Below are positions 52,430-63,596 of a stretch of DNA of 64,000 bases, piece by piece. A program made the translations under genes and the position numbers. The DNA is from Adhaeribacter aquaticus DSM 16391 (lineage in GTDB: Bacteria > Bacteroidota > Bacteroidia > Cytophagales > Hymenobacteraceae). Every line of letters begins with the position of its first letter. Position 1 is the stretch's first letter. Under the pieces are notes generated by a model. That model saw nothing but the letters and a program-made list of their open reading frames with translations. It was not told the DNA's origin and did not search any database. The stretch covers positions 4,228,296-4,292,295 of the forward strand of contig NZ_KI421517.1 in the NCBI RefSeq assembly GCF_000473365.1, in the 5' to 3' direction.

Positions 52430-52927
52430 TTATTTCGGAGTAATTATTTCTTTCTTATCGGTTGTTGCATCCAGGATTTCTAATTTAAATTGATCCGATA
52501 AAAACAAAGCATCTGCTTTAATATCTTTGTATTTTCCTTTTGCAATACGGATATATTCAAATTCATTAATTCTTATATTTAAGGCTGTTTGAGTATTACT
52601 TGAATAAGTACTTAACCCAGTATTATAGCTTTGATTTCTAATTATTATTTTATCATTTGTTATGGTAATTCGCCAAAGTTTAGGCAAACTTTTCCAGTTC
52701 CCGAATTTCAAGCCAAATAAGCCCCAATATTCCTTATAATATAAGGTATCTAAATTCAAGACTACTCCATAATGAGTAAATAATATTAAAATAGATAATA
52801 GTAGTAATCCAACTCCTAATAGCGGGATTTGCAGGAAGGAAATAATTCCACAAAACACCAGTGCGAATCCTACTATTTTAACTTGCAAAGGGAAAACATT
52901 ATCAGTTTTTCTATTAAATAGGTTCAT
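52430..52927 (-). CDS. Hypothetical membrane protein
   Basis: 165 aa. Two membrane helices near the N-terminus (VGFALVFCGIISFLQIPL and VGLLLLSILILFTHYG), then a beta-rich soluble domain (LKFGNWKSLPKLWRITITN, IRINEFEYIRIAKGKYKDI). Not recognised. Single minus-strand gene between attC-like elements at both ends. Confidence 0.65.
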   Translation of the reverse strand: MNLFNRKTDNVFPLQVKIVGFALVFCGIISFLQIPLLGVGLLLLSILILFTHYGVVLNLDTLYYKEYWGLFGLKFGNWKSLPKLWRITITNDKIIIRNQSYNTGLSTYSSNTQTALNIRINEFEYIRIAKGKYKDIKADALFLSDQFKLEILDATTDKKEIITPK

Positions 52928-52944
52928 ACAAACTTTAAAATATA

Positions 52945-53005
52945 GCAGTTAGGTTAACGGCGTCGGCCGAGGCTGGCGTTTAGGTGTTCTGTGTGTTGCC
53001 CAATT
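52945..53005. repeat. attC-like hairpin element S1
   Basis: GC-rich, imperfectly palindromic sequence just upstream of the minus-strand gene 52927. The block 52963-52988 (TCGGCCGAGGCTGGCGTTTA onwards) matches 58574-58600 in element S2 at 22 of 27 aligned positions, in the same orientation. On the minus strand it ends GCCGTTAACC, with GGGCAAC at the other end, partly complementary as in attC R'' and R' boxes. Confidence 0.45.
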
Positions 53006-53149
53006 AGTTGAAGATATGGATTAAAGCAGATAGTAGCAAATCATTAGCAAGATGCATGGTAGTAAGAAATTTAAAGACAAGAAAGCCCATACTATCGTCA
53101 GGCCGGCTCCGCAAAACATTTTTTAAAATTGAAGAGTTTAAAACAATCG

Positions 53150-54352
53150 ATGACAAAGCGACCTGGCATTTTCCCTACATTTTTTATTTCCGGATTTGAG
53201 TGTTCTACCTTCTTGTGGAAAGATAAAAAAAGACGTAATTTGATAGCTGAAACCCAACACGATCGCTTTGCCGCTAAAGATTATGCCTTGCTGCGGGATT
53301 TAGGTATTGCGGTTTCCCGCGAAGGCATCTCTTGGCCCATGGTAGATAAAAACGGGTCCTACGATTTCTCATCCATCGATCCCATGATTGAAGCCATGCA
53401 GCAGCAAAAAATACTGCCGGTATGGGACCTTTGTCATTATGGCTATCCGGATGATCTGGATCCTTTTAGCGATGCGTTTATTCAGCGGTTTGCCGACTAT
53501 TGCAAGGCCGTAGCCGAATATGTAACTCCAAAACTGCCCGGCCCTTATTTCTTTACGCCCATAAACGAAATTACTTTTTTTTCTTTTTGTGGCGGCGAAT
53601 GGGGATGGGTCGCACCTTACCGAAACACCCGGGAAGATCGGTATAAACTCCGGCTGGCACTGTGCAAAGCCGCTATTGCCGGGGTAAAAGCCATAAGGCA
53701 GGTAGTGCCCGATGCCCGCATGATTAACATCGATCCCCTGGTGCAGGTAGTGGCACCCCACAACCGGCCGGACCAGAAACAGGCCGCCTGGCACGAAACA
53801 TATGTTGATACCTTTCTGGCATGGGATATATTATATGGTAAAGAACATCCGGAATTGGGCGGCTCTCCCGACATATTAGACATTGTAGGGGCCAATAATT
53901 ATTCTTTTGGCCAGATGGAATACCGGGAACAAGGCCCGCACGAAGCGCTGCCCCCGGATGACGACCGCATTAAGCCGCTGTGCGACCTGTTGCATTTGGT
54001 TTGGGAAAGGTACAAACGCCCCATGATTATTGGCGAAACCAGTGGCATGAAGGAAGGTTGGGAAGATTGGCTGCGGGATGTCATGGACGAATCATTGGCG
54101 GCGGTAGAAGCGGGTATTGATTTACACGGTATTTGTCTTTTTCCGGCAGTAGACATGCCCGACTGGCATACCAACGAATGGCTGCACAACGGCCTTTTCG
54201 ACCTGGAAGCAGAAGGCGAACTGCTGCAGCGGAAAGAATGTGTGCCTTACGTGGCAGAATTGCGTCGCTGGCAAAAAGAACTGAACCGGGTAACAGCGCT
54301 GGATCAGGATCCATTCAGTGGTCAAGGCCAAATGGTTGAACCGTTTCAATAG
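53150..54352 (+). CDS. GH1-like beta-glycosidase-family protein
   Basis: 400 aa from the ATG at 53150. Similar to family 1 glycosidase-like proteins: IFPTFFISGFECSTFLWKD, DYALLRDLGIAVSREGISWP, WDLCHYGYPDDLDPFSDAFI (GH1-like HWD-type strand), TPINEITFFSFCG (acid/base Glu) and RPMIIGETSGMKEGW (nucleophile Glu). Such proteins hydrolyse beta-glycosides; here the exact sugar is unknown. The last dozen residues (SGQGQMVEPFQ) come from antisense TrpF sequence, so the natural C-terminus appears lost. No signal peptide. Confidence 0.85.
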   Translation: MTKRPGIFPTFFISGFECSTFLWKDKKRRNLIAETQHDRFAAKDYALLRDLGIAVSREGISWPMVDKNGSYDFSSIDPMIEAMQQQKILPVWDLCHYGYPDDLDPFSDAFIQRFADYCKAVAEYVTPKLPGPYFFTPINEITFFSFCGGEWGWVAPYRNTREDRYKLRLALCKAAIAGVKAIRQVVPDARMINIDPLVQVVAPHNRPDQKQAAWHETYVDTFLAWDILYGKEHPELGGSPDILDIVGANNYSFGQMEYREQGPHEALPPDDDRIKPLCDLLHLVWERYKRPMIIGETSGMKEGWEDWLRDVMDESLAAVEAGIDLHGICLFPAVDMPDWHTNEWLHNGLFDLEAEGELLQRKECVPYVAELRRWQKELNRVTALDQDPFSGQGQMVEPFQ

Positions 54353-54896
54353 CTTTTTTCACATTGTCTTTGTTCAGTCCGCCTGCCAGAAACAATGGGA
54401 TTGGTATCGACCTTCTGATTTCCTTACTTAATTCCCAATTGTGTACTCTTCCTGTACCACCCAATTCTTTTACCGATAGTTTTGGATTTCCACTGTCTAA
54501 TAAAATGGCATCGACATATGCTGAAACTTCGATAGCTTCTTTTACTGAATTCTGGTCAATTACGTGAATAACTTGCACCAACTTGACATTTGGCAATTCG
54601 CTGCGAAGCATTTCATACTCCCGCCTCTCTAATTCATCTACAATTTGAATCGTTGATGTATTGACACGTCTGTAATGTTTAATTATGTCTTTTGGGTTCG
54701 TTTCGCTTGTCAGCAAGAAAGTTGAAATAGGTGGTGGAACTGTCTTTGCAATTTGACTTATGAGCTCATCTCCAATAACACCTGGTCCGCTTGGCATATG
54801 TCCAACCAAACCCAATGCAGACGCTCCGTGTTCAATAGCAATTCTTGCTTCATCAATACTACTAATACAGCAAATTTTTACTCTTGGCTTTGTCAT
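54315..54896 (-). CDS. Phosphoribosylanthranilate isomerase-like protein, C-terminally truncated
   Basis: 193 aa. TrpF converts phosphoribosylanthranilate to its ribulose form in tryptophan synthesis. Seen: VKICCISSIDEA (catalytic Cys9; the usual KICG glycine is Cys here), ILLDSG with Asp134, GGTGRVHNW, and FLAGGLNKDNV for the phosphate. The protein stops at PFGLDH, where the family normally continues GLDLCSGVRT and about 20 more residues. The end overlaps the convergent GH1-like gene by 38 bases. No other trp gene is present, so this may be a divergent or broken paralogue. Confidence 0.8.
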   Translation of the reverse strand: MTKPRVKICCISSIDEARIAIEHGASALGLVGHMPSGPGVIGDELISQIAKTVPPPISTFLLTSETNPKDIIKHYRRVNTSTIQIVDELERREYEMLRSELPNVKLVQVIHVIDQNSVKEAIEVSAYVDAILLDSGNPKLSVKELGGTGRVHNWELSKEIRRSIPIPLFLAGGLNKDNVKKAIETVQPFGLDH

Positions 54897-55280
54897 TTTA
54901 ACTTACTTATTCTTAACGATTCTGTCTATCCCTAAGTAGAGCATACCGCACTTCGCTTTGCGATGGCGAGGCTGCCTTAAAGGCTTGTTTAGCGGCTGCT
55001 CTTTACATTCTATAAGTAGCACAACAATTCTATTGATGAGCAAATCAGCCGTTGTGTGCTTCAAATTATAGAGCTGGTTTTACTTTGTTACTTCAGCCTT
55101 ACTTAGGCATGGGTGTTTATATACTGAAATTTTCCAAGACAATATCATCCAGGTATAAAAGGGAAAAGAGCTAACCATTTAGGTTCGGGCCACCCAGTCC
55201 AAAGAACTTCACAATCAGAATTTTGTTGAAGGCTTAGGTAAAAGCTGTTACTTAACCCTCATAGGAACTGTTATAATGTG
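54897..55280. other. Gene-free region with attC-like sequence
   Basis: About 380 bases. Around 54942-55000 the sequence is GC-rich and imperfectly palindromic (GCACTTCGCTTTGCGATGG and AAGGCTTGTTTAGCGG), distantly resembling elements S1 and S2. A second inverted pair GCACAAC/GTTGTGTGC spans about 55018-55062. No gene. Confidence 0.4.
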
Positions 55281-58506: not shown

Positions 58507-58540
58507 TTTCGCAAACTTAAATAGAGAGGGTGGCATTACA

Positions 58541-58605
58541 CACAACGACTGGGCTAAACGGCGGGCGAGGCCATCGACCGAAGACTGACGTTTAGGTTTT
58601 GTTAG
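58541..58605. repeat. attC-like hairpin element S2
   Basis: Between the AraC gene and the upstream lipoprotein gene. CTAACG-type core: CTAAACG (58554-58560) and CGTTTAG (58589-58595) are perfectly complementary across a GC-rich 28-base loop. It shares a 27-base block (58574-58600) with S1. Outer ends read CACAAC and GTTAGTC. On the minus strand it lies 3' of gene 58606 and 5' of the AraC gene, the position of an attC in a gene cassette. Confidence 0.5.
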
Positions 58606-59199
58606 TCAAAGTTTTTCTTCTTTTTCAATTTTAGCTTTAAATAAACCATCAGCATACCAATTCATAATACCTTCCTTTGCTCTTACATGTAATTCACCAA
58701 AAATACTATCTCCAACAACAAATTTTGTTTTGTGTAACCGTAGGCGTTGATTTAATATAACTACTGGAATAGTATCTGTTTCAACTATAAGCGTTGAGGA
58801 ATAAGGCAAGGCCTGAAATTTTTCATTAACAACTTTTAATTTAATTCCATAACCAACTTCAAAGCTGTTTGTAATATAAATATTTATAGTATCCTTGGAT
58901 AAGTAAGCTTTACACCTATAAATTGTTTCCACCCCAACTCTTTGATCTAAAGAATCGCTAACTTTTACAACCTCCATCCTACTGGTGGCTCTTTCGGTAG
59001 TAGTGTCATCCATACTGGAAAGCACTCTATTATTACCCAAGAAATCAAAATACATACTTTCATTAAACCCTTTTCTAATCTGGATGGAGTCAAAATCTGA
59101 CCTTAGATTATTCTTTATTTCTGAGTCATCAGAATTAGTCTTCTCTTCAGAGCAACTTAATAAAAAAGTCATTACTACCAGGTAAAATAAAACTTTCAT
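58606..59199 (-). CDS. Hypothetical lipoprotein
   Basis: 197 aa. Signal peptide with lipobox Cys16 (VVMTFLLSCSEEK). The mature part is polar with strands (KAYLSKDTINIYITNSFEVG, TLIVETDTIPVVILN) and ends in a charged tail (KIEKEEKL). No family recognised. Short gene with attC-like sequence on its 3' side. Confidence 0.68.
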   Translation of the reverse strand: MKVLFYLVVMTFLLSCSEEKTNSDDSEIKNNLRSDFDSIQIRKGFNESMYFDFLGNNRVLSSMDDTTTERATSRMEVVKVSDSLDQRVGVETIYRCKAYLSKDTINIYITNSFEVGYGIKLKVVNEKFQALPYSSTLIVETDTIPVVILNQRLRLHKTKFVVGDSIFGELHVRAKEGIMNWYADGLFKAKIEKEEKL

Positions 59200-60653: not shown

Positions 60654-60710
60654 CACATTATTCTTTAATGTTTGAGTAAAAGTGAAATTTTGATTTTTAC
60701 GCTCAAGCAT

Positions 60711-60773
60711 AACGGTTAGTATATGCAAAGCCCGAAGCGAAGCACGGGTTTTGTTTATGCCTTGTTAGCCGTT
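60711..60773. repeat. attC-like hairpin element S4
   Basis: 63 bases between the GlxA-like gene (60801) and the HEPN-like gene. Outer arms AACGG (60711-60715) and CCGTT (60769-60773); inside, AAAGCCCG (60727-60734) pairs with CGGGTTTT (60745-60752) with one G-T pair across a 10-base loop. On the minus strand it reads CGGCTAAC ... CCGTTATGC, resembling integron R'' and R' boxes. Confidence 0.5.
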
Positions 60774-61923: not shown

Positions 61924-62349
61924 ATGATACAAGCAACTAGATTGGTGGTAGAAGGAACAATACATGCACCCGTAGCAAAAGTTTGGAAAGCCTGGAATAC
62001 TCCCAGCAACATTATGCAATGGAACACTCCTGACCCAAGCTGGCATACTGCAAGTAGTGAAAACGACCTGAGAGCAGGTGGTAAGTTTAAGAATAGAATG
62101 GAAGCCAAAGATGGCAGCTTCGGTTTCGACTTTGAAGGGACTTATGACAAGGTGGAGTTGCATAAAGAAATTGCTTACACCATGAGTGATGGAAGAAAAG
62201 CTACTACTTTGTTTACAGAGCAAGACGGTAAAACACAAATAGCAACCACATTTGATGCTGAAACAGAAAATGACCCTGAGTTTCAGAAACAAGGATGGCA
62301 GGCTATCCTGAACAACTTTGTGAATTATATTGAATCATTCAATCAATAA
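61924..62349 (+). CDS. SRPBCC family (AHSA1-like) protein
   Basis: 141 aa. N-terminal strand RLVVEGTIHAPVAKVWKAW, PSNIMQWNTPDPSWH, ENDLRAGGKFKNRME, FEGTYDKVELHKEIAYTM and a C-terminal helix (EFQKQGWQAILNNFVNYIES) give the AHSA1/START-like fold with a hydrophobic cavity. Function unknown. First gene of a plus-strand run of small proteins, divergent from the GlxA-type regulator. Confidence 0.9.
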   Translation: MIQATRLVVEGTIHAPVAKVWKAWNTPSNIMQWNTPDPSWHTASSENDLRAGGKFKNRMEAKDGSFGFDFEGTYDKVELHKEIAYTMSDGRKATTLFTEQDGKTQIATTFDAETENDPEFQKQGWQAILNNFVNYIESFNQ

Positions 62350-62369
62350 ACCATAGATATCTTAATGTT

Positions 62370-62765
62370 ATGAAAAAAATTAAAATAATCTTTTGGGTGG
62401 CAACTACCGTCATTATACTTTGGGAAGGTGTAATGCCCCTTAGCACCATACTGTTTGCACCAGAGTATGTAAATGCTGGTACAAAACCTTTGGGCTATCC
62501 AGATTACTTTGCCTATTCGCTTATCATTTGTAAAGTACTCGGGGTTTTAGCTATTTCCTATCCTAAAACACCCGGTAAACTTAAAGAATGGGCCTATGCG
62601 GGGCTAACCTTTAATTTAATATTTGCCTTCATCAGTCATGCCTCTGTAGATAAAAACATTGGGTTTATGCTAATGCCAATTGTGGTACTGGGCATTCTGG
62701 CAGTCTCTTATGTTTATTACAATAAGATCCAGGATTATGGCCAAAACAAATTATCAGTCAATTGA
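62370..62765 (+). CDS. DoxX-like membrane protein
   Basis: 131 aa with four predicted membrane helices (IIFWVATTVIILWEGVMPL, YSLIICKVLGVLAISYP, WAYAGLTFNLIFAFISH, MPIVVLGILAVSYVYYN). Matches the DoxX-like group. Role unknown in Bacteroidota. 20 bases after the SRPBCC gene. Confidence 0.82.
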   Translation: MKKIKIIFWVATTVIILWEGVMPLSTILFAPEYVNAGTKPLGYPDYFAYSLIICKVLGVLAISYPKTPGKLKEWAYAGLTFNLIFAFISHASVDKNIGFMLMPIVVLGILAVSYVYYNKIQDYGQNKLSVN

Positions 62766-63135
62766 TGAGTACCACCAGGCTTTTAGTGGTGAGGCGTTAG
62801 CGAGAATGCAGACCATCCGGAAAATCATTAACGATGTAGTACCTGAGGCAGAGGAATGTATCAGTTATCAGAAACCTTGCTATAAATACCACGGGTATCT
62901 GATATACTACTGCGCATTTCCCAAACATATTACTTTATCGAACCCCTATAGCAAGGCGTTTTGGAACCACTTTAAAGAAGATTTGGCGGGGTATAAAACA
63001 AATAAATCTGCCATTCAGATTACAACATCTCAACCACTGCCTGAACAACTCATTACAGAAATTGTGACCTTCAGGAAGAAGGAGAATGAGGGAAAGGAAA
63101 GAATAAAAAGGAATATTCAATCAACTCAAACTTAA
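62737..63135 (+). CDS. DUF1801 family protein
   Basis: 132 aa from the ATG at 62737 (MAKTNYQSIDEYHQAF), overlapping the previous gene by 29 bases. Seen: LARMQTIRKIINDVVPEAEE, ISYQKPCYKYHGYLIYYCAF, HITLSNPYSKAFW and a basic C-terminal helix (FRKKENEGKERIKRNIQ). DUF1801 resembles small iron-chaperone-like or phosphopantetheine-type folds; function unknown. Third gene of the operon. Confidence 0.85.
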   Translation: MAKTNYQSIDEYHQAFSGEALARMQTIRKIINDVVPEAEECISYQKPCYKYHGYLIYYCAFPKHITLSNPYSKAFWNHFKEDLAGYKTNKSAIQITTSQPLPEQLITEIVTFRKKENEGKERIKRNIQSTQT

Positions 63136-63146
63136 TTTGTAATAAA

Positions 63147-63596
63147 ATGGAAAACAATAGTGTATCACTACACAGGGTAATTAAGGCAAGCCCGGAAAAA
63201 GTATTTCGGGCATTTGCAGATCCTATAGCGCATTCAAACTGGCTCCCCCCTTATGGCTTTGTATGCACGGTACAGCAGATGGATTTTAAGGTAGGCGGTC
63301 AGTTTAAAATGACCTTTATTAATTTCAGTACAGGTAACGGACACTCCTTCGGTGGAGAATACCTGGAAATAAAAACTAATGAATTTATTAAATACGTTGA
63401 TAGATTTGACGATCCCAATTTACCCGGAGAAATAACAACTACTATATGGCTGAACAAGGTTTTCTGCGGGACTGAACTTAAAGTATTACAAGAAGGAATT
63501 CCTGATGTAATACCCACTGAAATATGCTATTTAGGCTGGCAGGAATCGCTGGAGAAGTTGATAAAACTTGTAGAACCTGAAATTCCTGATGCTTAA
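63147..63596 (+). CDS. SRPBCC family (AHSA1-like) protein, second copy
   Basis: 149 aa. SLHRVIKASPEKVFRAFADP, SNWLPPYGFVCTVQQMDFKV, GGQFKMTFINFSTGN, EYLEIKTNEFIKYVDRF, and CYLGWQESLEKLIKLVEPE: the same START-like fold as the copy at 61924 but not close in sequence. 11 bases after DUF1801, same operon. Confidence 0.9.
   Translation: MENNSVSLHRVIKASPEKVFRAFADPIAHSNWLPPYGFVCTVQQMDFKVGGQFKMTFINFSTGNGHSFGGEYLEIKTNEFIKYVDRFDDPNLPGEITTTIWLNKVFCGTELKVLQEGIPDVIPTEICYLGWQESLEKLIKLVEPEIPDA

Follow-up and report, generated by a model that had tools for sequence, protein, structure and literature searches.

Two facing genes truncated at one joint in a probable integron-like cassette array of Adhaeribacter aquaticus

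The window analysed here, a stretch of 64,000 nucleotides from A. aquaticus DSM 16391, contains a GH1-like gene and a TrpF-like gene that face each other and have both lost their 3' ends at one breakpoint. Alignment with homologous sequences confirms that this truncation is real and no chance effect. The resulting scar is probably the product of illegitimate recombination in a cassette array that is integron-like and decaying. As such it is best explained as ordinary genome decay and is of modest interest; the type of array in which it appears to lie is more interesting.

Truncation of the GH1-like and TrpF-like genes

The GH1-like gene (53150..54352, + strand) consists of 390 native codons followed by ten codons of antisense TrpF sequence. 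Its ORF was listed from a TTG at 53129, homologues start at the ATG at 53150, and the stop codon occupies 54350-54352. The five close homologues are each 414 aa long with a conserved tail, and the window protein matches them up to residue 390, so the loss corresponds to their last 24 residues. In place of this tail the protein ends with GQGQMVEPFQ, in agreement with the initial annotation, which had read its final residues as translated from antisense TrpF. The protein matches the Pfam family Glyco_hydro_1 with 36.2 bits (cut-off 22.6), but stays below the NCBIfam BGL equivalog for GH1 beta-glucosidases (45 bits versus a cut-off of 478.5). It retains the conserved NEI and GETSG motifs, to which we assign presumed catalytic roles, and with its core kept it may still be working.

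The TrpF-like gene (54315..54896, - strand) takes its last codon and stop from antisense GH1 sequence. Its product ends in VQPFGLDH, one residue past FGLD, whereas at least 20 residues follow FGLD in all 84 homologous loci compared among the matches listed (80 of 558 matches, together with L054-L057). The closest five homologues among these are 217 aa long and extend 25 residues past position 192. The early end at PFGLDH had been described before as a loss of about 20 residues; the truncation stands, the loss is 25 residues, and we call the gene TrpF-like, its identity as TrpF being unproven. The protein scored 57.5 bits against Pfam PRAI (cut-off 22.7), and its best score of 104.3 bits against the NCBIfam TrpF equivalog is below the cut-off of 215, the query being the truncated protein. 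The match to the best solved structure (1lbm) ends at residue 178 of 205, which we take to mean that the barrel is incomplete at its end, and a protein of this kind is likely inactive. The same genome contains two further PRAI matches (125.3 and 42.4 bits).

The 3' ends of the two ORFs overlap by 38 bp, tail to tail. The right joint maps to 54319..54321 (no strand assigned), with GH1-derived DNA on its left and TrpF-cassette DNA on its right, and G54320 is the only base compatible with both sides. Among 49 DNA matches on the TrpF side, similarity begins at 54320 in 18, at 54322 in 11 and at 54316 in three; at the five GH1 loci it ends at 54318 (two loci), 54317, 54304 and 54294. Thus, the two breaks meet at approximately 54317-54322 with no gap between them, and the claim that both natural 3' ends are missing at the same spot is borne out by the homologue alignments. 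None of the 84 listed TrpF-like loci or the five close GH1-like genes has the same ends as the window genes, which would have spoken against a rearrangement, and a GH1 gene is absent from all 84 TrpF loci compared among the matches listed. The proposal that two genes were joined by deletion or recombination is supported by these homologues, and a second joint was found on the far side of the GH1-like gene.

Both joints lack homology and are known from the assembly, not from reads, as would be the case if unrelated contig ends had been joined artificially. We consider such an artefact improbable, since the right joint lies in the interior of a 4.8-Mb contig of a four-contig assembly and the GH1 end meets the TrpF start gaplessly.

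Array around the window

In a survey that left out ORFs antisense to longer ones, the GH1-like gene is the sole + strand ORF of at least 90 aa between 46.0 and 61.8 kb; all the others lie on the - strand. Other + strand ORFs occur within the array at 61.9-64.0 kb and 65.0-65.4 kb; the orientation of the GH1-like gene is therefore not unique, and it could have been an inverted cassette gene. One + strand run (window 61924-63596, continued at L150:5443-6305 in the chromosome to the right) is flanked by attC-like sites, one at 60.7 kb and the other at 64.0 kb.

A covariance model of attC was built from seven sites. It has three matches inside the window, of which only the site at 58537..58609 (- strand, 85.3 bits), itself a training sequence, is strong. 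The match at 60705..60772 (- strand), also recognised by eye, is at chance level (14.7 bits, E 2.6), and a degenerate attC-like site at 52936..52997 (- strand) gave 20.4 bits (E 0.13); the weakness of these two sites counts against placing the scar in an array. Upstream of the TrpF cassette, a stretch at 54921..55060 (- strand) was judged by eye to be a probable attC; its folding is not significant (z -1.06). More attC-like sites, all on the - strand, follow in the chromosome to the right of the window. There, 4 kb from the window edge, the array is headed by the remnant of a tyrosine recombinase (L150:10166-12356), which comprises the last 131 aa without the N-terminal part. The remnant adjoins a gene that we regard, from its sequence, as gamma-glutamyltransferase-like.

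The model has at least 16 matches at E ≤1 in the whole genome, including six grouped to the right of the joint, at 4286832-4295654 (five of them training sites), and eight that are scattered. At approximately 3.13 Mb (L169:7141-11023), a second cluster of two or three attC-like matches adjoins a second recombinase remnant. Another genome of the same genus (G004, including L155) has at least 26 attC-like matches, several of them clustered. Both genome counts may be low, because the two scans scored 150 out of 558 and 150 out of 880 candidates from a first look.

No single candidate site had a significant folding energy (six stretches, z from -1.06 to 0.68), and a search with Rfam at the gathering threshold returned one tRNA and nothing else. 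A home-made attC scanner was discarded after it reported five places, each on both strands, with one acceptable site. Taken together, 27 attC-like sites from seven sources have the paired outer (R''/R') and inner (L''/L') arms of integron attC sites. Standard pairs fill 82.2% of their pair cells versus 68.6% in shuffled and at most 41.7% in slid alignments, and covariation is 0.345 versus 0.125 in shuffled ones, with none of 500 shuffles as high on pairing or covariation; these values include the seven training sequences and an alignment fitted to the structure.

No notable hairpin is present at the right joint (folding z -0.16; 81 of 200 shuffles equal), as had been remarked in the initial annotation. 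Several nearby hairpin-like boundaries are attC-like sites, and the missing hairpin therefore probably corresponds to the attC that the TrpF cassette has lost. The attC model has no match between the TrpF-like and GH1-like genes, and the cassette is likely no longer excisable on its own.

The TrpF-like gene as a cassette in relatives

A 1261-bp unit, 93.3% identical between Algoriphagus marincola (L067) and Maribacter orientalis (L069), contains the TrpF-like gene and one further ORF (L067:4480-5736; L069:111-1366). From its sequence, we take this further ORF to be NUDIX-like. The boundaries of the unit are two GTTs, one terminating the attC-like site before it and one terminating its own attC-like site, and at E 1e-5 the flanks in the two genomes have nothing in common except one 37-bp match. 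Thus, the TrpF unit behaves like integron cassettes, which are exchanged between genomes as units. By eye, attC-like sites were located 3' of the TrpF-like gene at four of 14 loci viewed (L067, L069, L070 and L082). The attC model matched just two of 83 TrpF-like loci (L067 and L056) and not L054, which counts against a general cassette nature and limits its demonstration to a few relatives.

Strong TrpF-like matches (E <1e-70) are confined to four other genomes among the 59 searched, own genome included. Among seven genomes of the same genus, six have no match and the seventh has a weak one (E 4e-4, 23% identity). The median dN/dS of the TrpF-like gene is 0.061 (8 computable of 12 pairs with the window) versus 0.056 for the other pairs (33 of 66), with dS near saturation. 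By this measure the gene shows no sign of decay, which counts against a scar in a decaying array; the joining event may be recent, or dN/dS may be uninformative. These ratios cannot date the joining event.

The left joint and the origin of the scar

A second discontinuity is located on the far side of the GH1-like gene, at 53085..53093 (approximate, no strand assigned), where similarity to an IS1182-like element ends. Window positions 52973-53085 are 85% identical to the same-genus genome G004, in which the start of an IS1182-like transposase, also a broken one, comes after an attC-like site, with no GH1 gene at that place and no close copy of either the GH1-like or the TrpF-like gene in the genome. 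By this comparison, the relic in the window, a transposase start with its leader, occupies 52998..53092 (+ strand) and is broken off. Next to it lies the degenerate attC-like site mentioned above, and beyond that a 165-aa ORF (52430..52927, - strand), which has no match in Pfam or NCBIfam and is probably a cassette gene. The GH1 segment (~53093-54319) is therefore bounded by a non-homologous joint on both sides; its left boundary is approximate, and 53093-53149 is putative GH1-side DNA. With this second joint, a one-step deletion between tail-to-tail neighbours does not fully account for the arrangement.

We propose that a fragment of approximately 1.23 kb carrying the GH1-like gene was joined to the broken ends of the array without homology, save for a single base common to both sides of the right joint. 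This could have occurred in a single step at a double-strand break, or a larger insertion could have been trimmed afterwards by deletions. In the process, the array would have lost the 3' end of TrpF, the attC behind it and the DNA in between.

The main rival is a plain fusion of neighbouring cassettes, with the GH1-like gene present beforehand in the array as an inverted cassette. A single deletion of a few hundred bases would then have taken away both 3' ends together with the attC between them. This rival owes its rank to the other + strand ORFs in the array, and it draws further support from the attC-like site beyond the far side of the GH1-like gene and from published fusions by attC loss (PMC4670013). 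The far side of the GH1-like gene, on the other hand, abuts a broken IS relic and no cassette start. Highly similar GH1 genes occur in four of seven same-genus genomes and in one genome of the same family; these five relatives carry them in three different neighbourhoods, and the attC model has no match at any of the five loci. Thus, we regard the fusion of two cassettes as unlikely, though less so than the other alternatives.

An inversion between two genes of the same direction, with breakpoints in both, would also produce the tail-to-tail geometry and would leave the lost 3' ends joined elsewhere. Nothing convincing was found in short searches of the own genome for these ends: two peptides (28 and 34 aa) had no match at E ≤10, a weak test without a positive control, and two degenerate DNA motifs had three and one matches, none in a fitting frame. 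An inversion is rated very unlikely. Joining by a recombinase at a secondary site is the least credible of the alternatives, to be given hardly any weight. The proposed array type implies that such an enzyme formerly worked here, but neither GTT nor a half attC was seen in the right-joint sequence, which makes its action unlikely, and of the local recombinase 131 residues are left. Illegitimate recombination of a GH1-carrying fragment into the array remains the preferred reading.

Array recombinase and intact arrays

A recombinase 74% identical to the A. aquaticus remnant was found in a genome of the same family (G014; L168:3314-10927), where it is cut by the contig end. It is followed, on its own strand, by seven - strand attC-like matches, all in or at the gaps between listed - strand ORFs (overlap ≤9 bp), and the + strand has two palindromic echoes. 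An intact relative of 484 aa heads the array of a Rufibacter tibetensis plasmid (NZ_CP012644; L171:13215-20464), where eight attC-like matches follow it in its direction and one lies elsewhere on the other strand (E 0.26). Seven of the eight + strand matches are in or at intergenic gaps (overlap ≤18 bp) and one is within an annotated gene. Thus, both the Rufibacter plasmid and G014 have short genes, each with an attC behind it. Another intact 484-aa relative heads the array of the Pontibacter kalidii plasmid pls1 (NZ_CP111080; L170:13215-19084), with two attC-like matches, and a related remnant is the head of the Algoriphagus stretch that carries the TrpF cassette. A recombinase with approximately 53% identity to the array recombinase is encoded on Acinetobacter plasmids and in one record from an uncultured bacterium, where it is annotated TnpF.

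The 484-aa protein contains SAM-like and integrase domains, and its first ~205 residues have no Pfam match. It has the same orientation as its cassettes. The Rufibacter protein aligns with IntI4 (2a3v) in two pieces, separated by 28 residues where IntI4 has 71, and its score against TIGR02249 (199.4 bits) is below the cut-off of 265; the IntI-specific additional domain of integron integrases is thus absent. Judged from these sequences, the array would resemble an integron in its working but fails one tested defining feature, and for this reason we do not file it as a classical integron. Tentatively, and with slightly less than even confidence, we suggest an overlooked Bacteroidota variant of the integron: attC-cassette arrays on chromosomes and plasmids, driven by a tyrosine recombinase of 484 residues that carries its own N-terminal extension but no IntI-specific domain and is co-transcribed with the cassettes. 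The window would be a decaying example of this type, including an end-joined gene that is no cassette.

Relation to known systems and significance

In fused cassettes of class 1 integrons, the attC of the first cassette has likewise been lost and the neighbours are permanently joined (PMC4670013). In the window, too, the attC between the two units is gone, but both coding regions are described as retained in the class 1 cases, whereas here each 3' end is lost. Moreover, the genes here face each other, unlike those fusions as described in that paper, and the second may be no cassette.

In CALIN elements, as described for IntegronFinder 2 (PMC9024848), attC-like sites and small genes likewise stand in a row with no working integrase; here, in contrast, the row is headed by the remnant of a recombinase whose type lacks the IntI-specific segment. 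The same paper mentions, for Bacteroidetes, In0 elements found earlier and then a complete Salinibacter integron, and integrons in Bacteroidota as such have already been published (PMC8618304, PMC9668308). The reverse-orientation integrons of Spirochaetota share with the present arrays an integrase that is reversed relative to the usual layout (PMC9668308). Their integrases are described as IntI, whereas the array recombinase has no IntI-specific segment and carries an N-terminal extension of ~205 residues. Integrases approximately 120 residues longer have been described (PMC2426708). The IntI-specific domain has been called necessary for integron-mediated recombination, and IntegronFinder requires it (PMC9668308). 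Our search of the literature on Bacteroidota integrons and on integrases without the additional domain, with subscription papers mostly outside its scope, found no account of this array type; such silence is weak evidence of novelty.

The scar is a small, clear case of wear in a cassette array, in which an attC was removed, a cassette gene was broken and another gene was brought in. If the proposed array type is real, any method that depends on the IntI-specific domain would overlook integron-like gene exchange across much of this large phylum, and the need for that domain in attC recombination would become testable.
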